The notes under the pieces were generated by a model that was given only the letters and a program-made list of their open reading frames with translations, ran no database searches and was not told the origin of the DNA. A DNA stretch of 64,000 nt. Origin: an uncultured Spirochaetaceae bacterium. Lineage in GTDB: Bacteria; Spirochaetota; Spirochaetia; Sphaerochaetales; Sphaerochaetaceae. The stretch spans positions 1 to 64,000 of the forward strand of contig CALXLH010000028.1 in NCBI GenBank assembly GCA_944389145.1, in the 5' to 3' direction. Positions within the stretch are counted from its first letter, which is position 1. Each line of letters begins with the position of its first letter. Below, in pieces: positions 11,064 through 20,264 of the stretch. The position numbers and the translations under genes were made by a program.

Positions 11064-11822
11064 CTAATAACGTGAAAGCTCAGGTTTCAGGGCCGTGAAG
11101 AAGCTTTCCAGATCATCATACCTTATCGATGCGTAGCTATCGAGGTAGGTGGGCTGGCGGTTGACGATGACTATGTCCCGTCCGGCCATCACCGAGCGGT
11201 ATGGCAGCGCCGCCGCAGGATTCACTACGAGGGAGGAGCCTAGGATGATCGCCAGGTCAGCATTGGTAAAGGCGTTCTCTCCCCTCATCAGCATGGTCGC
11301 ATCAAGGCTCTCTCCGTAGAATACGATATCAGGCTTGACAAGGGAACCGCACGTCTGGCATACGGGAACGATCCTTCTGTTCACCGCATCTGCGAGATAG
11401 CTGTAATCATAGTAGCGGTGACAGCCTATGCAATATCCGGAACGCAGGCTTCCATGAAGCTCATAGACCCGGCGGCTTCCAGCCTTCTGATGAAGAGAGT
11501 CTATGTTCTGCGTGAAGATCCCCTCCGAGAGCTTTCCCTTGCCCTCCATCAGGGCAAGGACCTCGTGTATCATGTTCGGACTGTATCTGTCCATCTGGAA
11601 CCAGTACTCGCGCGCCCAGTCATAGAAGACATCCGGATGAGCCTTGAAGAACTCTATGTCAAGAATCTCCTCAACGCTCATAGAGCCGAATTCCTTGCTA
11701 TAAAGCCCCGTAGAGGAACGGAAGTCAGGAATCCCCGATAGCGTGGAGACCCCGGCCCCTGTCAGCACGACGACGCGGCGCGCCTTATCCAGCAGCTCGA
11801 TGAATGGCTTGATATCACGCAT
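11064..11822 (-). CDS. cobB: NAD-dependent protein deacylase (sirtuin, CobB/SIR2-type)
   Basis: The 252-residue protein has the canonical SIR2 core: VVLTGAGVSTLSGIPDFR (17-35), FTQNIDSLHQKAG, the catalytic His123 in YELHG, and a complete zinc ribbon (Cys131, Cys134, Cys155, Cys158). LGSSLVVNPAA and IVNRQ complete the NAD fold. It should remove acyl groups from lysines with NAD. The ATG at 11822 has an AGGGGG ribosome site at good spacing; a Met two codons upstream is also possible. It overlaps the end of miaB by 8 bp, so it is the last gene of folD-miaB-cobB. It differs from the SirTM-type protein at 18314. Confidence 0.93.
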   Translation of the reverse strand: MRDIKPFIELLDKARRVVVLTGAGVSTLSGIPDFRSSTGLYSKEFGSMSVEEILDIEFFKAHPDVFYDWAREYWFQMDRYSPNMIHEVLALMEGKGKLSEGIFTQNIDSLHQKAGSRRVYELHGSLRSGYCIGCHRYYDYSYLADAVNRRIVPVCQTCGSLVKPDIVFYGESLDATMLMRGENAFTNADLAIILGSSLVVNPAAALPYRSVMAGRDIVIVNRQPTYLDSYASIRYDDLESFFTALKPELSRY

Positions 11823-13104
11823 GCTCATGCCCCCTGAACGTATTTCCAGAAAGCTCGGATGCATCGATCATGACGATATCTCCGGCCTTATGGGGAGAAG
11901 AGGGAGTGAATGCGAAATAGTCATTATGCTCGCCCCTGGCAAGATACATAGACCCATCATCGCGGCTCTCGCCTGTGACTATCGCCCTGGCAGAGAATGG
12001 AAGCATGCTCTCCTTTATGCGGCGCTGCCTCTCCAGCTGCTCGGAGATAAGCCTTTCCAGCCGCCTGACCTTCACGCCCTCTTCCAGCTGACCGTCCATG
12101 GATGCAGCCCGCGTGCCCTCACGAGGGTTGAAGTAGTACATGAAGGCCTCCGTGCATCCAAGCGCTTCCATCGCGCTCAGCGTCTCTTCGTACTCCTGAT
12201 CCGTCTCTCCAGGGAAACCAACCATCACGTCAGTCGAAAGCGTCAGCGACGGAATCCTCTCCTTCATCCTGCCTGCCAGCGAAAGGAAAGCCTCGCGCGT
12301 TGTCTTCCTGTTCATCAGCTGGAGGATCCTCGTCGACCCAGACTGCATCGGAAGGTGTATATGGCTCGCGATCCTCTCATTATCGGCTATGACCGAGATC
12401 AGATGATCGGAGAAATCCTTCGGATGAGGAGATTCGAAGCGAACGAAGATGATGCTGTCGAGATATGGAGTGATGATCTCAAGGAGCGTGGGGAAGTCCA
12501 CATCATGCCCATTATATGTCGAATGATAGGAATTGACATTCTGCCCGAGAAGAGTGATCTCGCGGACACCATCTGCCTCAAGCCTCTCGATCTCGGCAAT
12601 AACATCCTCCACCTTGCGAGACACCTCCCTGCCCCTGACATAGGGGACGATGCAGTATGAGCAGAAGTTGTTGCAGCCGTTCATTATAGGGACGTAGCTC
12701 GACCACTCGCCCTCCTTATGATAGGAAGGAAGGAAGCGGTAGCCATCAGCCTCATCCAGCGCCGAGCCCAGGATGTAATCAGGAATCTCGGCCTTCTCAT
12801 TCGTACCGATAACCGCATCGATGAACGGAGCTTCGTGCTTTAGGTCATCCTTCATGCGCTCCGCCATGCATCCTGTGACGATAAGTCGAAGCGGATGCTT
12901 CTTCTTCATCGCGCTGTAGAATCCGAGGCGTCCCCAGATCCTGTTCTCTGCGCTCTTGCGCACCGAGCAGGTATTGATGATCACCACATCGGCCTTGTCC
13001 GGATCGGAGGCCCTCTCCAGCCCGCGGCCACGCAGGATGGCATCCATGGCGTCAGCCTCTGCCATGTTAAGCTGGCATCCATATGATTCAATCAGGTATC
13101 TCAA
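11815..13104 (-). CDS. miaB: tRNA-2-methylthio-N6-dimethylallyladenosine synthase MiaB
   Basis: The 429-residue protein has all three MiaB domains. The N-terminal UPF0004 domain holds Cys10, Cys46 and Cys79 for the auxiliary cluster. The radical SAM domain carries NGCNNFCSYCIVPYVRGRE (Cys144, Cys148, Cys151), and a TRAM domain follows from about 370. It methylthiolates A37 of tRNAs reading UNN codons. Length matches the family. It overlaps folD by 4 bp and cobB by 8 bp. Confidence 0.95.
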   Translation of the reverse strand: MRYLIESYGCQLNMAEADAMDAILRGRGLERASDPDKADVVIINTCSVRKSAENRIWGRLGFYSAMKKKHPLRLIVTGCMAERMKDDLKHEAPFIDAVIGTNEKAEIPDYILGSALDEADGYRFLPSYHKEGEWSSYVPIMNGCNNFCSYCIVPYVRGREVSRKVEDVIAEIERLEADGVREITLLGQNVNSYHSTYNGHDVDFPTLLEIITPYLDSIIFVRFESPHPKDFSDHLISVIADNERIASHIHLPMQSGSTRILQLMNRKTTREAFLSLAGRMKERIPSLTLSTDVMVGFPGETDQEYEETLSAMEALGCTEAFMYYFNPREGTRAASMDGQLEEGVKVRRLERLISEQLERQRRIKESMLPFSARAIVTGESRDDGSMYLARGEHNDYFAFTPSSPHKAGDIVMIDASELSGNTFRGHEHA

Positions 13105-14663: not shown

Positions 14664-15860
14664 ATGAGAAGACAAGGAACGACCATCATGATCCTGGCGC
14701 TTATCGCGGCACTCACGTCATGCAACCTCGACTCAGGCCAGGGAGTCTTCCAGATGGCCCATAATGCCACGAAGAAGACCGAATACACGATAACAGATGT
14801 CTATGGCAGCTATGATGATAACGGAACGGCAAAGCTGCTCGTGAGCCGTGATGGAGACCTCTGGTCCACATGGTCAGAGCAAGGAGACAGTGAGATGAGG
14901 GCGGAAAAGCTCATGGAGCTTACGCTTTCCACGATGAGGCCTATCTTCGTCAATGGATCAGGCACGCTCTTCTATGCCTATAAGGAGAACATGACCGATG
15001 AGGCCTACCGCTTCGCGTCCGTCTCCCTTTCCACGATCGCAGAGGAAGAGAGCGGTAACGGATTCGACTATAAGAGCGAAGGCACCGTGCTGACACCTTC
15101 ATTCGGAGAGAATGTCACCAAGTTCAGCAGCATCAACCTTGATCTCGATACATGCCAGATCATCTATGGCTCTGGCTCAGGGACATACTACGGGAAGATC
15201 GAGAGCAAGGCTGCGGCAGAGAATCTGGATATCACGACGATAGGTACCGTGGACAGAGCCGCGATCGTATTCGGGGACAATGCCATCTATTCATATTATG
15301 AGGACAGCGACATGGAGAACGCTCCCGATGACCTGATCATCACCCGCTTCAATGGAACGGCAGCCGAGACGATCGACTCAATGTCCGTAGATGAGGACAA
15401 TATCCCAATGGGCTATGATCCTGACGGAGGCTACTTCATCACATTCGACGGCGATCTCTATCAGTTCGACAGCAGCGCGGATAACAGCAACGGCTACACG
15501 AGGATAGACGGAGGATTCGTATCAGACCTTAGATACAGGACAGGGCATCACATGGTCCTCTCGACGGAGGAAGGAGAGAGGCAGGTGGCATTCATCTATC
15601 GCAATGGCATATATGTCAACGAGCCAGGTTCGGATACTGCTCCACGCATGCTCTCGATAGACAATAACGACAATGACATCATAAGCACGACGTATATCGG
15701 AAAGAGCGCCGGGGATGCTGACCGGTATCTCTATGCAACCCAGAACAACAGCTTCATCATCGTGGAGCTGGGAAGCCTCAACGAGGACAACAGATACACC
15801 ACCTACTCCGTCTCCAGCTATTCGCCGCTGACGCATGGACAGCTGAGCGAGTATCTTTGA
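14664..15860 (+). CDS. Putative lipoprotein, unknown function
   Basis: The 398-residue product has a lipoprotein signal: RRQGTTIMILALIAALTSC with Cys25-27 region preceded by LTS. The mature part is acidic and repetitive in character, with repeating strand-turn units containing aromatic-D-G turns (VYGSYDDNGTAKLLVSRDGD, IIYGSGSGTYYGKI, GDLYQFDSS). These suggest a beta-propeller-like or solvent-exposed beta fold, but no family was recognised. The ATG at 14664 has GAGGGGG 7 bp upstream; a TTG 15 bp earlier is possible. It follows the small barrel protein and ends before a strong terminator. Confidence 0.65.
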   Translation: MRRQGTTIMILALIAALTSCNLDSGQGVFQMAHNATKKTEYTITDVYGSYDDNGTAKLLVSRDGDLWSTWSEQGDSEMRAEKLMELTLSTMRPIFVNGSGTLFYAYKENMTDEAYRFASVSLSTIAEEESGNGFDYKSEGTVLTPSFGENVTKFSSINLDLDTCQIIYGSGSGTYYGKIESKAAAENLDITTIGTVDRAAIVFGDNAIYSYYEDSDMENAPDDLIITRFNGTAAETIDSMSVDEDNIPMGYDPDGGYFITFDGDLYQFDSSADNSNGYTRIDGGFVSDLRYRTGHHMVLSTEEGERQVAFIYRNGIYVNEPGSDTAPRMLSIDNNDNDIISTTYIGKSAGDADRYLYATQNNSFIIVELGSLNEDNRYTTYSVSSYSPLTHGQLSEYL

Positions 15861-15883
15861 GCCGGAAGTCTCAGGCAATGACC

Positions 15884-15912
15884 AGGCACCTTCACGATGG
15901 AGGTGCCTTTTC
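15884..15912 (+). terminator. Rho-independent terminator after the lipoprotein gene
   Basis: AGGCACCT (15884-15891) and AGGTGCCT (15901-15908) form a perfect 8-bp stem with a 9-base loop, followed by a T run. It ends the barrel protein-lipoprotein transcript and isolates the next operon. Confidence 0.88.
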
Positions 15913-15977
15913 CTTTCCCGTCAGAACGGCAGCCACGATCCTCTGAAATCGAAAGGCTAAGATTATCAGCAGGAATT

Positions 15978-16053
15978 TTAATGTAACCATTGACATTACA
16001 TTACAGCGACGCTATATTCCCTCACGTAGATGAAACCATAATGGTTACATTAA
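15978..16053 (+). promoter_or_regulatory. Promoter and repeated operator of the SirTM/macrodomain operon
   Basis: A near-consensus promoter is present: -35 TTGACA (15990-15995), 17 bp, -10 TATATT (16013-16018). The -35 lies inside a 21-bp element (15981-16001) whose arms are ATGTAA and TTACAT. A 13-bp sequence, TTAATGTAACCAT (15978-15990), returns exactly inverted at 16041-16053, and the middle also forms AACCATAATGGTT (16034-16046). The element at 15981 recurs with one changed base at 16440-16460. A dimeric repressor, most simply the Rrf2 protein encoded at 16499, is inferred to bind here; the downstream copy would add a roadblock or looping site. Confidence 0.8.
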
Positions 16054-16068
16054 TCAAGGAGGTCTATC

Positions 16069-16440
16069 ATGACAAACACGGAAAAGGCATTGGCGCTTAT
16101 CGGGACATTCGCTACTGGAGACACAAAGACAGCAGGAGAGCTACTTGCCGAAGGCTACATTCAGCACGATCTCGCCTATGGCACGGGAAGGGATGCATTC
16201 ATCTCATCCGTAGAATACCTCACATCTGCCCCAGTGAAGACAACTGTTGAGAACATCATGGCATTCGAGGATGGAGACAAGGTCTTCCTGCAGAACGTCT
16301 ATGACTTTGCCGGAGCCGGAGAGCAGGTCGCATTCGACATCTTCCGCTTCGATGAGGACGGACTAATCGCAGAGCACTGGGACGTGATGGAGACGATCGC
16401 AGATCCGTCGACCTGGCAGAATGACAATGGAAAATTCTGA
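16069..16440 (+). CDS. NTF2/SnoaL-like protein, first gene of the SirTM operon
   Basis: The 123-residue protein has the compact NTF2-like (SnoaL) pattern: a helical start (EKALALIGTFATGD), GYIQHDLAYGTGRDAF, and the strand FDIFRFDEDGLIAEHWDVMET. These cone-shaped folds bind small hydrophobic molecules or act as simple isomerases, hydrolases or monooxygenases; substrate is not readable. An AGGAGG site precedes the ATG. It is the gene right behind the operator region and is followed 58 bp later by the Rrf2 gene, with another operator copy in between. It could be an enzyme for a reactive metabolite, or a substrate of the ADP-ribosylation pair downstream. Confidence 0.82.
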   Translation: MTNTEKALALIGTFATGDTKTAGELLAEGYIQHDLAYGTGRDAFISSVEYLTSAPVKTTVENIMAFEDGDKVFLQNVYDFAGAGEQVAFDIFRFDEDGLIAEHWDVMETIADPSTWQNDNGKF

Positions 16441-16460
16441 TGTAATCATTGACATTACAT
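16440..16460 (+). promoter_or_regulatory. Second operator copy before the Rrf2 gene
   Basis: A 21-bp element with arms ATGTAA and TTACAT differs from the copy at 15981-16001 at a single position (T for C). It begins within the stop codon of the SnoaL-like gene. It contains TTGACA (16449-16454), which could serve as a -35, but no convincing -10 follows at the right distance. It is therefore either a weak internal promoter under the same control or a repressor binding site only. Confidence 0.75.
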
Positions 16461-16498
16461 AGTAAGGATAAAAGAATGATGGCAGGAGGAGGAAGCTA

Positions 16499-16936
16499 AT
16501 GCAGATAACATCAAGATTCACCGTAGCCTTGCATATATTCGCCTGCGTGGAGTACTTCAAGGGAGAGTGCAAGGTCACGAGTGATTTCCTTGCCGGAAGC
16601 ATAAGCACGAATCCTGTCATCATCCGTAGGATACTTGGACAGCTGTCAAGGGCAGGGCTTGTAAAGGTTGCAAGAGGGACAGGCGGAATTGAGATAACAA
16701 GACCTCTTGGAAAGATATCCTTCTACGATGTCTACCGTGCCGTGGACTGCATTGAAGGCGATGAGCTCTTTCACTTCCATGAGAATCCCAGCCCTGACTG
16801 CCCTGTCGGAAGAAGTATCCATGCGCTTCTCGATGACAAGCTTGCCTCGATCCAGGAAGCGATGGAAGGAAAGATGAAGGAGTACACTCTTGAAGATATC
16901 GGAAGAGAAGCAGTCCTTTCACTCCTCCAGCGCTGA
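16499..16936 (+). CDS. Rrf2-family transcriptional regulator without an iron-sulfur ligand cluster
   Basis: The 145-residue protein starts MQITSRFTVALHIFACVEY and continues with SISTNPVIIRRILGQLSRAGLVKVARGTGGIEITRP, the winged helix and wing of the Rrf2 family (about 1-70), then a long helix. The three closely spaced Cys that hold [2Fe-2S]/[4Fe-4S] in IscR or NsrR are absent (Cys are at 16, 24 and about 74 and 100 only). It thus resembles YwnA/CymR-like members that sense by other means. It is the natural candidate to bind the two operator copies. A GGAGGAGG site precedes the ATG. Confidence 0.88.
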   Translation: MQITSRFTVALHIFACVEYFKGECKVTSDFLAGSISTNPVIIRRILGQLSRAGLVKVARGTGGIEITRPLGKISFYDVYRAVDCIEGDELFHFHENPSPDCPVGRSIHALLDDKLASIQEAMEGKMKEYTLEDIGREAVLSLLQR

Positions 16937-17567
16937 GCACTGCCTTCAGCTGCTTGCGGAGGGGATCCATACTGTAGTTGCCTCGACGGTCGATGATGAC
17001 GGCCTTCCCACAACCTGCGCGATTGACATCATGGACTGGGACAGTGATGGGCTCTATTTCCTCACAGCAAGGAGAAAGGGATTCCATCACAGGCTAACGG
17101 CAAGAGGATATATCGCCATCACAGGCATAAAAGGCAGCGATACGATGTCATCGCTCGCGATATCGGTACGTGGAAAGGTCGAGGAGCTTGGGAAAGAACG
17201 CCTTGATCGACTTTTGAGGAAGAATCCCTACATATTCGGGATCTACCCGTCAGAGGAATCTAGAAAGGCGCTTTCAGCCTTCAGGCTGCATGAAGGGAGC
17301 GGAGAGTATTTCGACCTGTCGGTCAGGCCGATAGCAAGGATCGGATTTTCCTTCGGGGGCAATGAGTACAATCATGGATATGAATTCATGATTGCAGAGA
17401 GCTGCACAGGCTGCGGCCTTTGCCTCAATGCCTGCCCTCAGGGGTGCATAGACTCAGGAACCGTCCCTTTCTCAATCATCGGCAGGCATTGCCTCCTGTG
17501 CGGGCGATGCGCTGATATATGCCCGGCCAAGGCAATAGCCAGGAGAGGTGACAATGATGACACATGA
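16890..17567 (+). CDS. Flavin-reductase/PPOX-like domain fused to a 2[4Fe-4S] ferredoxin
   Basis: The 225-residue protein joins a split-barrel pyridoxamine-5'-phosphate-oxidase-like flavin domain (about 15-150: TVVASTVDDDGLPTTCAIDIM, FLTARRKGFHHRLTARGYIAITG) to a bacterial-type ferredoxin. The latter has Cys172-175-178-182 and Cys201-204-207-211, each ending in CP, for two [4Fe-4S] clusters. It should pass electrons between a cluster pair and an FMN-bound substrate in the cytoplasm. The start is TTG with AAGGAG seven bases upstream, so the gene begins 47 bp inside rrf2. It is placed directly before the macrodomain gene. Redox substrate unknown. Confidence 0.85.
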   Translation: MKISEEKQSFHSSSAEHCLQLLAEGIHTVVASTVDDDGLPTTCAIDIMDWDSDGLYFLTARRKGFHHRLTARGYIAITGIKGSDTMSSLAISVRGKVEELGKERLDRLLRKNPYIFGIYPSEESRKALSAFRLHEGSGEYFDLSVRPIARIGFSFGGNEYNHGYEFMIAESCTGCGLCLNACPQGCIDSGTVPFSIIGRHCLLCGRCADICPAKAIARRGDNDDT

Positions 17568-18348
17568 TGAGAAAAGGCTTTGGCTGATCAGATACCTTCT
17601 TGAAGAAAGCGATGGATGCAAAGGCGCAGATATCCCAGATGAAGAGGGAAAGCAATGGAGGATGCTCCGTTCCCTTATGAATATCAGGCCAGCCTCCCCT
17701 GCCACAGATGAGTTCATCAGGATACAGGACAGCTTCCTTCAGGAAGAGACCAGGCGTAAGGGAATCACGGATATCGGCACGCTTAAGCCTTGGAAGAACG
17801 GGATGTGCCTCTGGCAGGGAGATATCACGACACTCAGGTGCTCCGCCATCGTAAATGCTGCGAACAGCGGCATGACCGGCTGCTATCATCCATGCCATAG
17901 ATGCATTGATAATGCTATACACACCTATGCAGGGATCCAGCTGAGGCTTGAGTGCGCCCAGATCATGAGGAGGCAGGGCCATGATGAGGAGACGGGACTG
18001 GCTAAGATCACGAAGGGATGGGACCTCCCTGCGCAGCATGTGATCCATACCGTCGGTCCGATAGTCCTCTCCCCTGAGCCGACGGAGGAGGACAGAAGGC
18101 TGCTATCATCATGCTACCGCTCCTCCCTTACCCTTGCTGATGAGAACGGCCTGGAAAGCATCGCATTCTGCTGTATCTCGACAGGAGAGTTCCGCTTCCC
18201 GAACAAGGCAGCAGCAAGGATCGCATTTGATACGGCAAAGGAGTATCTTAGGGATACCGGCAGTACGATAAGGATCGTGTTCAATGTCTTCAAGGATGAG
18301 GACAGGAGGATCTATGAAAGGCTCTTCAGAGAACATCAGGGAGCTTGA
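17554..18348 (+). CDS. Zinc-dependent macrodomain protein (protein ADP-ribosylhydrolase)
   Basis: The 264-residue protein has an N-terminal helical extension (1-80) and a macrodomain: WQGDITTLRCSAIVNAANSGMTGC, then GCYHPCHRCIDNAIH with Cys110, His112, His115, Cys117, the metal-binding loop of zinc macrodomains. FCCISTGEFRFPNKAAARIA is the second ADP-ribose loop. Zinc macrodomains of this type are known from SirTM operons of Staphylococcus and Streptococcus, where they remove mono-ADP-ribose from the lipoyl-carrier GcvH-L. Start: AGGAG eight bases before the ATG at 17554. Overlaps the preceding gene by 14 bp and the SirTM gene by 35 bp, indicating tight co-translation. Confidence 0.92.
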   Translation: MMTHDEKRLWLIRYLLEESDGCKGADIPDEEGKQWRMLRSLMNIRPASPATDEFIRIQDSFLQEETRRKGITDIGTLKPWKNGMCLWQGDITTLRCSAIVNAANSGMTGCYHPCHRCIDNAIHTYAGIQLRLECAQIMRRQGHDEETGLAKITKGWDLPAQHVIHTVGPIVLSPEPTEEDRRLLSSCYRSSLTLADENGLESIAFCCISTGEFRFPNKAAARIAFDTAKEYLRDTGSTIRIVFNVFKDEDRRIYERLFREHQGA

Positions 18349-19189
18349 GGAGAAAATCGAGAGCGCCGACATGATTGTCATAGGAATCGGCTCCGGGATG
18401 TCGTCCGCTTCCGGCTTCGACTATTCCGGAGAACGCTTCGAGAGATGCTTTTCTGACTTCCATGAACGATATGGCATAACCGATATGTACTCTGGAGGCT
18501 TCTATCCATTCCCGTCAGCGGAGGAATACTGGGCATGGTGGTCCAGGATGATATGGCTCAATCGCTATGAAGCGGGTATCGGGAAACCGTATCTCGATCT
18601 CCTCTCCATAGTAAGGGACAAGGAGTACTTCATCATCACGACCAACGTGGATCACCAGCTGCAGAAGGCAGGATTCGATAAGAAGCGCCTGTTCTATACG
18701 CAGGGTGATTACGGACTGTTCCAATGCTCCCTGCCATGCCATCAGGCGACATATGACAATAAGGAGGCCGTAAGGAAGATGCTTGATGAGCAGGAAGGCA
18801 TGAGGATTCCTTCCTCCCTGATTCCGCGCTGCCCGGCCTGCGGCAGGCCTATGACGACGAATCTCCGCATAGATGACAGATTCGTGCAGGATGAAGGATG
18901 GCATGACGCAGCAGGACGCTACGAGGCCTTCCTCAGGCGATGCAGCGGGAGAAAGATCCTCTTCCTGGAGCTTGGCGCCGGAATGAACACGCCAGGCATC
19001 ATCAAATATCCGTTCTGGAAGATGACTGCGGAGATCGGCAGCGCCTTCTACTGTGCCATAAGCAGGGATGATGCGGTCATCCCTCCTGCGATAAGGAAGA
19101 GATCCCTGGTCATCGCTGATGATCTGGGGCCTGTCCTGGCCTCTCTATCAGGCACCCTCCGAGATAAGGAAATCGGTGAGGATATCTGA
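18314..19189 (+). CDS. Class M sirtuin (SirTM), protein ADP-ribosyltransferase
   Basis: The 291-residue protein shows the divergent SirTM signature: IGIGSGMSSASGFDYSGERF (about 23-42), WAWWSRMIWLNRY, TTNVDHQLQKAGF with Asn111, and FYTQGDYGLFQC, where Gln130 replaces the catalytic His of deacetylase sirtuins. A zinc ribbon is formed by Cys138, Cys142, Cys173, Cys176. SirTM enzymes transfer ADP-ribose from NAD to a protein and lack deacylase activity. The ATG has AGGAGG four bases upstream. Pairing with the zinc macrodomain is the known arrangement, but gcvH-L and lplA2, the usual partners, are missing here. The 3' end overlaps the convergent YbjN-like gene by 42 bp. Confidence 0.92.
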   Translation: MKGSSENIRELEEKIESADMIVIGIGSGMSSASGFDYSGERFERCFSDFHERYGITDMYSGGFYPFPSAEEYWAWWSRMIWLNRYEAGIGKPYLDLLSIVRDKEYFIITTNVDHQLQKAGFDKKRLFYTQGDYGLFQCSLPCHQATYDNKEAVRKMLDEQEGMRIPSSLIPRCPACGRPMTTNLRIDDRFVQDEGWHDAAGRYEAFLRRCSGRKILFLELGAGMNTPGIIKYPFWKMTAEIGSAFYCAISRDDAVIPPAIRKRSLVIADDLGPVLASLSGTLRDKEIGEDI

Positions 19190-19609
19190 CTGCTGGACGA
19201 AAGCATCGATCACCGAGACCAGTAGCTCTTCATCGAGGCCTGACTCTCCATACAGCAGGTCATAGTCCCAGAAGAACGTATGATCTATCGGGACATACCA
19301 TCCGCGGACGATGACAAGATTGGCATTGCATTCATTCATAAGCCGGAATGCCGTGATGCTGTCGATCGAATCGGATGCGTACCATGAGCACTGTATCCAG
19401 AGCCGCCGGTCTTCAGGAATATGGATCATGTAATAGACGAATCCATACTGATCCTCGAATGCAACGTCACCATCCTCGTCGACGTAGGCGGCATAGCCAG
19501 CATCAGACAGGAGCGATACCAGATTCTCCGATGTGATCTCATCGGTGGAGAGCGCGAAGAGCGGACAGGCGAGCAGAAGCAGGAGAACTATGATCGTTAT
19601 GCGTCTCAT
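19148..19609 (-). CDS. Exported YbjN-domain-like protein
   Basis: The 153-residue protein has a signal peptide (RRITIIVLLLLLACPLFA) followed by one YbjN-like domain: LVSLLSDAGYAAYVDEDGDVAF, RRLWIQCSWY, AFRLMNECNANLVIVRGWYV, and a C-terminal helix VIDAFVQQSDILTDFL. YbjN domains resemble type III secretion chaperone folds and are of uncertain function. Export to the periplasm is the visible prediction. A Cys in the signal (LLACPLFA) might be a lipobox but the cleavage after LFA looks better. Its 3' end runs 42 bp into the SirTM gene. Confidence 0.7.
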   Translation of the reverse strand: MRRITIIVLLLLLACPLFALSTDEITSENLVSLLSDAGYAAYVDEDGDVAFEDQYGFVYYMIHIPEDRRLWIQCSWYASDSIDSITAFRLMNECNANLVIVRGWYVPIDHTFFWDYDLLYGESGLDEELLVSVIDAFVQQSDILTDFLISEGA

Positions 19610-19649
19610 AGCCTATCATATCATGGAAAAAGCCGCCGGAGCGGCTCTT

Positions 19650-20264
19650 TCACTCAAGAATCGAATGAAGTATCTCCCTGACCTCAGGATCCGTATATAC
19701 CTCATCGATCTCATCATGGGTAAGTCCGATGAACTCATGGCAGGTATAGTGTATCCACCTCGAGTCCTCGGCCTTGTTCAGCACATGGCGGCGGCACCAG
19801 TAGTCAGGCTGCACGGGAAGCGGCTCCTCTTTCTTGTATAGAGGCACCTTATAATCATACACGGCAACCTTTATATCTTCCCGCGGAATACCAGCGTCCA
19901 TGACGGTCCTGACCAGCGCATTGACGGTCATTCCCGTATCGAAGATATCATCGACGATAAGGACCTTCTGCCCCTTCTTCAGATGGCGGGGAGACCAGGT
20001 CCAGCCATCGATATCGACATGGGAGGAATGCTCGCGGACATCACCATATGACCTGGCGACGACTGCTGCATAGAATACTGGACTCTTGCCCTCCTTCATT
20101 GCCATCAGCTTGTAATACTCACTCATGACATTAGCCATGTAAGCACCACCCCTGAGGGAGTCATAGATGACATCAGGAACGAAGTGGTCCTCCGTGTACA
20201 TCCTGTGTACGAGCTTCAATGCCGCATCGCGAATCATGTCGCAGGTGATGAATTCCTTGCCCAT
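19650..20264 (-). CDS. Phosphoribosyltransferase (purine salvage type)
   Basis: The 204-residue protein contains the type I PRTase motif KVLIVDDIFDTGMT (about 100-113) and a hood region with DVIYDSLRGGAYMANVM, comparable to xanthine/hypoxanthine-guanine PRTases. The most likely reaction is base + PRPP giving a nucleoside monophosphate. The C-terminal half (VYDYKVPLYKKEEPLPVQPDYW) resembles the region that recognises the base in Gpt-like proteins. Exact purine specificity is not decidable. It is the last gene of the surA-like-nusB-map run; 8 bp separate it from map. Confidence 0.82.
   Translation of the reverse strand: MGKEFITCDMIRDAALKLVHRMYTEDHFVPDVIYDSLRGGAYMANVMSEYYKLMAMKEGKSPVFYAAVVARSYGDVREHSSHVDIDGWTWSPRHLKKGQKVLIVDDIFDTGMTVNALVRTVMDAGIPREDIKVAVYDYKVPLYKKEEPLPVQPDYWCRRHVLNKAEDSRWIHYTCHEFIGLTHDEIDEVYTDPEVREILHSILE

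Follow-up and report, generated by a model that had tools for sequence, protein, structure and literature searches.

SifR of Streptococcus pneumoniae binds TGTAA-N9-TTACA, a site identified on the model of that of HypR, and quinone modification of its cysteine corresponding to C101 of the protein described below releases the DNA; SifR is 42% identical to YwnA (PMC9218516). As HypR is cited in that paper, its operator core is the same as that of SifR. In the Fe–S members of the Rrf2 family, such as IscR and NsrR, the ligand motif consists of three connector cysteines of the Cys-X5-Cys-X5-Cys type, and helix 1 of the partner subunit can also contribute ligands alongside the connector; RsrR uses E8 and H12 (PMC9218516). 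Stand-alone operons of a SirTM and a Zn-macrodomain gene have already been described, and SirTMs have been reported from Spirochaetaceae (Rack et al. 2015, PMC4518038; PMC11490716). The trigger of these SirTM/Zn-macro operons has so far been given only as oxidative stress (PMC4518038, PMC11490716). Term searches did not find Rrf2 in either of these papers, and the open-access papers searched included no relevant one linking Rrf2 to SirTM or SnoaL.

The DNA analyzed here (the window) is a stretch of 64,000 nucleotides from an uncultured Spirochaetaceae bacterium, a gut-type spirochaete, and it contains the following five genes.

16069–16440, + strand: snoaL, 123 aa, one-domain SnoaL/NTF2-like protein (PF12680, 36 bits)
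16499–16936, + strand: rrf2, 145 aa, SifR/YwnA-like Rrf2 protein (PF02082, 100 bits; cut-off 30)
16890–17567, + strand: PNPOx/flavin-reductase-like domain with two 4Fe-4S motifs (ORF bounds; start provisional)
17548–18348, + strand: Zn-macrodomain ADP-ribosylhydrolase (NF003163, 332 bits; cut-off 272)
18314–19189, + strand: SirTM, macrodomain-linked sirtuin (match to 5A3A, E 7.6e-73)

The last three ORFs each overlap a neighbor. QG replaces the catalytic HG in the SirTM, where QGDYG aligned with QGEYG of the S. pyogenes SirTM 5A3A, and matches to 5KIV (E 7e-73) and 8RSL, both at E <1e-72, placed the macrodomain in the Zn-macro subclass. The locus therefore shares with the described SirTM/Zn-macro operons a SirTM with QG adjoining a Zn-macrodomain gene, but adds snoaL, rrf2, the flavin/Fe–S gene and with them a candidate repressor; gcvH-L and lplA2 were absent among the five genes at 16069–19189, which sets it apart from the extended SirTM operons. 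A canonical Sir2-family sirtuin gene (PF02146, HG motif) lies on the – strand at 11064–11864, about 5 kb upstream.

Both the PF02082 score and the predicted fold assigned the rrf2 product to the Rrf2 family. Its nearest solved relatives were 1YLF of B. cereus (E 2.2e-33) and YwnA of B. subtilis (1XD7; E 3.7e-25), and the same two structures were the best PDB fold matches of the predicted model (mean pLDDT 84.7) in Foldseek. The protein carries the motif HxxP[NS]PxC, as HENPSPDC in the window and HENPNPEC in the ortholog consensus, and in the predicted model C101 immediately precedes helix 5 (102–128), at the N-cap position that characterizes the SifR/YwnA class (HxxPNPxC with an N-cap cysteine). 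C101 was kept in 100 of 100 close orthologs; C16 in helix 1 was kept in 99 of the 100 and is missing from YwnA and 1YLF. Since C16 is conserved as well, C101 is not the sole conserved cysteine as in a strict monothiol member, and we filed the protein as SifR-like. It resembles HypR of Staphylococcus aureus, a dithiol HOCl sensor, in operator core and in belonging to the Rrf2 family, and thiol chemistry is likely for it too; it differs in that residue 33 is Gly, leaving no counterpart of the HypR pair C33/C99, and with 38.8 bits it fell far short of the 180 that the NCBIfam HypR model requires. IscR, NsrR and RsrR share the fold (Foldseek) and are likewise dimeric winged-helix regulators, but their operator sequences differ, and C101 is the only conserved cysteine in the connector region of the window protein, which has no three-cysteine motif. 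As ligands can be shared across subunits in the Fe–S proteins, a C16–C101' pair across the Rrf2 dimer is possible by analogy, and C16 is a possible second sensor thiol. The extra conserved cysteine of this clade also means that the inducer of SifR may not apply to the window Rrf2.

The regulatory elements around snoaL, to which the operators named O1, O2 and O3 belong, are as follows.

15884–15908, + strand: terminator-like hairpin, 11-bp stem with 6 G-C pairs and a T tail; ends the upstream gene
15981–16001, + strand: O1, ATGTAACCATTGACATTACAT, exact ATGTAA-N9-TTACAT; spans the –35 of the operon promoter
15990–16018, + strand: operon promoter, TTGACA (15990–15995)-N17-TATATT (16013–16018), 11/12 consensus matches
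16030–16050, + strand: O2, ATGAAACCATAATGGTTACAT, one mismatch to ATGTAA-N9-TTACAT; just 3' of the predicted start
16440–16460, + strand: O3, ATGTAATCATTGACATTACAT, exact ATGTAA-N9-TTACAT; before rrf2
16449–16477, + strand: internal promoter, TTGACA-N17-AAGAAT, 10/12 consensus matches; –35 inside O3, precedes rrf2

A check of the sequence thus revealed three copies of one mirror-image 21-bp dyad with the core TGTAA-N9-TTACA within 15981–16460, which is the operator core of SifR, exact in O1 and O3 and with one mismatch in O2, where the left half-site TGAAA replaces TGTAA. O3 differs from O1 by a single base, and its first base is also the final one of the stop codon of snoaL. The earlier note had listed the O1 and O3 copies, and its coordinates and sequences were correct to the base, as was the distance of 459 bp between them. 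It had also described a 13-bp sequence (TTAATGTAACCAT) at 15978–15990 with an exact inverted copy at 16041–16053; both copies were found, but they are not a stand-alone element, being the left arm of O1 and the right arm of O2, the third full dyad that the note had missed. Its figure of 63 bp is the offset between the starts of the two 13-mers; the useful distance is the 49 bp between the dyad centers of O1 (15991) and O2 (16040). Throughout the 2.13-Mb genome, a pattern count found the exact ATGTAA-N9-TTACAT only twice, as O1 and O3, and allowing one mismatch gave four sites, three of them in the SirTM operon locus. We regard the fourth (C22:24370) as a chance match, as it sits within an unrelated predicted ORF. 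With up to three mismatches the window was not enriched (13 observed against 9.9 expected from shuffles); such relaxed counts were dropped, and only close matches are taken as evidence.

The promoter TTGACA-N17-TATATT, flanked by the inverted 13-mers and with its –35 within an operator, was confirmed as the earlier note had it. This promoter and the internal one were the two best matches in 15800–19700, although the total of promoter-like matches in that interval was no higher than chance; terminator-like matches overall were likewise near the shuffle expectation. Transcription of the operon is predicted to start near 16025, placing the center of O2 about 15 bp 3' of the start, and the hairpin at 15884–15908 would isolate the operon promoter from the upstream gene.

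A search of related genomes for the element before rrf2-type genes, as the earlier note had proposed, bore out the operator. We compared 80 orthologous loci (65–84% identity), the best 80 of 437 from a scan of genome contigs; they come mostly from Spirochaetes and Bacillota and share common ancestry, so that the counts are not independent. Hornefia butyriciproducens and Lachnoanaerobaculum saburreum, both cultured, are among the carriers of the locus. Of these best 80 of 437, 50 had the exact TGTAA-N9-TTACA no more than 130 bp before rrf2, whereas none of the 80 had any of the control patterns in that interval (the dyad with four altered spacers, and five different dyads). An O1/O2 pair was present in 60 of these 80 loci, and the spacing in the resulting 61 pairs, counting the window, was 49 bp in 33 and 47 bp in 15, or about 4.5–4.7 helical turns. 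Cooperative binding at O1 and O2 is possible, but promoter geometry alone would fix this spacing. O1 is conserved as TGTAAC[TC]ATTGACATTACA in most relatives, O3 lies 52–66 bp upstream of rrf2 in most loci, and the internal promoter of the relatives reads TTGACA/TTGAAA-N17-TA.AAT. Most positions of the operators and of the –35 and –10 boxes had an information content of about 2 bits, whereas most of those between –35 and –10 stayed under 1 bit, a difference that common ancestry alone explains poorly. Covariation inside the N9 of O1–O3 did not stand out clearly from shuffles. About three quarters of the distinct O2 sequences, from two phyla, retain the left half TGAAA; this half looks as if a weaker site had been selected, judging from the sequences, and identical roles of O1 and O2 would not account for its persistence. 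The recurrence of the same layout in many distant gut bacteria argues that the operator set is real.

Several loci departed from this layout. Three Spirochaete orthologs (L094–L096; 69% identity) had no operator directly before rrf2; L094 and L095 have sirTM and macrodomain matches upstream on the opposite strand, and L096 has a macrodomain match only. Several Clostridia loci have only a look-alike of the operator in coding sequence before rrf2, and an apparent O3 at –107 in some Clostridia (TGTAACCGCCGAGGGTACA) was not taken as an operator, since it lies inside the ORF before rrf2, at least in L063. In some Clostridia loci (L080, L088 and L105), a gene judged by eye to encode an NAD(P)-binding, NmrA-like reductase-like protein occupies the position of snoaL while the operators are retained, an arrangement with rrf2 that recalls the ywnA-ywnB pair.

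Analysis of 138 genomes of the order revealed 39 matches to the exact core TGTAANNNTTGANATTACA in 25 genomes, compared with one match to the control, and 22 of the 25 genomes also contained an Rrf2 match. In two more of the 25 (L128 and L150) the same promoter stands before snoaL and the locus is severed by the contig end, and the match in the remaining genome (L127) was set aside as chance because it lies inside an amidohydrolase-like ORF. Seven sirTM-macrodomain loci apart from rrf2 (L179–L181, L183, L184, L187 and L188) contained no exact operator, and three of them belong to genomes with an rrf2 operon elsewhere (G054, G066 and G069); thus the operator follows rrf2, not sirTM. More distant SifR-like rrf2 genes (30–51% identity) had an exact copy nearby in six of nine loci (L035, L037 and L039–L042). 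The label "SirTM operon" used in the earlier note is too narrow: 64 of the best 80 of 437 loci have sirTM and/or a macrodomain gene downstream, and some long contigs have neither. What stays constant is rrf2 together with its operators, in most cases preceded by snoaL.

The distance between O1 and O3 reflects the length of the genes between them. Relatives encode a two-domain SnoaL of 257 aa, whereas that of the window has 123 aa, its first 105 residues following domain A and its tail following domain B, joined at an IAEHWD repeat; the loss amounts to 402 bp (134 codons), in frame, between two IAEHWD repeats. Open frames of 260–300 aa occupy the snoaL position in ten relatives of the same genus, and among the genomes searched in the genus the collapse was found only in that of the window, where it is possibly an assembly fault of the draft. 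Because of this deletion O1 and O3 are only 459 bp apart in the window; in relatives the distance is mostly 845–883 bp and reaches about 1655 bp at the most. Looping between these sites, as the earlier note had suggested, is therefore not supported.

Very probably, O1–O3 are operators of the adjacent Rrf2, which would act as a thiol/electrophile-sensing repressor of its own operon. The repeated operator, its overlap with the –35 and an Rrf2 repressor, all put forward in the earlier note, gain strong support from the known operator type, the adjacency of rrf2, the deep conservation and the absence of the site at sirTM loci without rrf2. A loop joining Rrf2 at O1/O2 to Rrf2 at O3 across 459 bp is an unlikely rival reading: three sites do lie on one segment, and many relatives retain the upstream-plus-internal arrangement, but a distance that follows gene lengths, and owes its value in the window to a deletion, does not speak for a loop, and every operator overlaps a promoter or a start, so that local blocking suffices. 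Somewhat less probable again is that the sites serve another regulator, either a second transcription factor or a distant Rrf2. The operator type is common to family members, and the same genome encodes a second Rrf2 (33% identity) beside other SirTM-like genes; across the order, however, the exact core occurs almost only beside rrf2 genes of the window type or their kin and is absent at sirTM genes apart from rrf2.

We give still lower weight to the idea that O2 works mainly at the RNA level, tuning translation through a hairpin in the 5' UTR or through a short reading frame in the leader (ATG AAA CCA TAA). O2 does fall within the predicted 5' UTR, AACCAU and AUGGUU could pair, and ATGAAA is conserved in most loci. 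Against this, pairing counts at the inner positions mostly equaled those of shuffles, and the outer TG...TTACA letters are those of the operator rather than those that a hairpin would call for. The ATGAAA frame varies by locus from 1 to at least 100 codons, and a leader peptide starting there was set aside because the reading frame is not conserved. Chance repeats in A+T-rich intergenic DNA would fit the missing enrichment of the pattern at up to three mismatches in the window, but exact genome matches are confined to the SirTM operon locus, and loci of two phyla have the sites at corresponding places, where the control patterns never matched; conservation already contradicts this explanation, which is close to negligible.

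Returning to the operators of an adjacent, self-controlling Rrf2, we infer binding by the window protein, repression, the inducer, a single transcript and the start sites from the sites, promoter matches, conservation, rrf2 linkage and protein family that the sequence provides. The reduced dimer would bind TGTAA-N9-TTACA, masking the –35 of the operon promoter from O1, stopping initiation or early elongation from O2, about 15 bp past the start, and masking from O3 the –35 of the internal promoter that would serve rrf2 and the following genes. Reactive electrophiles or oxidants, by analogy with SifR most likely quinones, would modify C101, possibly with the help of C16; the modified dimer would leave the DNA, allowing production of SnoaL, Rrf2, the flavin/Fe–S protein, the Zn-macrodomain protein and SirTM, and the rising level of Rrf2 would then re-establish repression. 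A wider proposal, which we advance tentatively and hold to be possible at most, is that in Spirochaetes and gut Bacillota a two-thiol (C16, C101) SifR-like subclass directly couples electrophile/oxidant stress to the reversible ADP-ribosylation that SirTM/Zn-macro carries out. The response would be graded, set by strong sites at the two –35 boxes and by a half-site at the start that selection has weakened.

Compared with SifR and YwnA, the window protein shares the operator (shown for SifR) and the HxxPNPxC motif with a helix-5 N-cap cysteine, which makes electrophile sensing plausible; it differs from YwnA and 1YLF in the extra conserved C16, and from SifR and YwnA in the place of its gene, within the very operon that is most likely under its control, and in the presence of three operators and of SirTM/Zn-macro genes downstream. 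Operator type and regulator family are known, and their pairing with SirTM/Zn-macro appears to be new, as does the clade-specific C16. For stand-alone SirTM operons, the locus supplies a candidate repressor, the exact sites to which it is predicted to bind and a chemical signal that is likely to act on it. It would extend SifR-like regulators to Spirochaetes, and TGTAA-N3-TTGANATTACA offers a simple search pattern for targets of such regulators.

The second SifR-like rrf2 of this genome (33% identity; L176, G000:C30:6500–9500, on to C30:10855) is transcribed divergently from a tandem of three SirTM-like genes, and the region between them contains TGTTA-N9-TTACA, which departs from the operator core at one position. 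A sensor of this type is thus paired with SirTM twice in one genome, and another genome, G040 (L178), likewise has the second rrf2 together with one or more of the SirTM-like genes.
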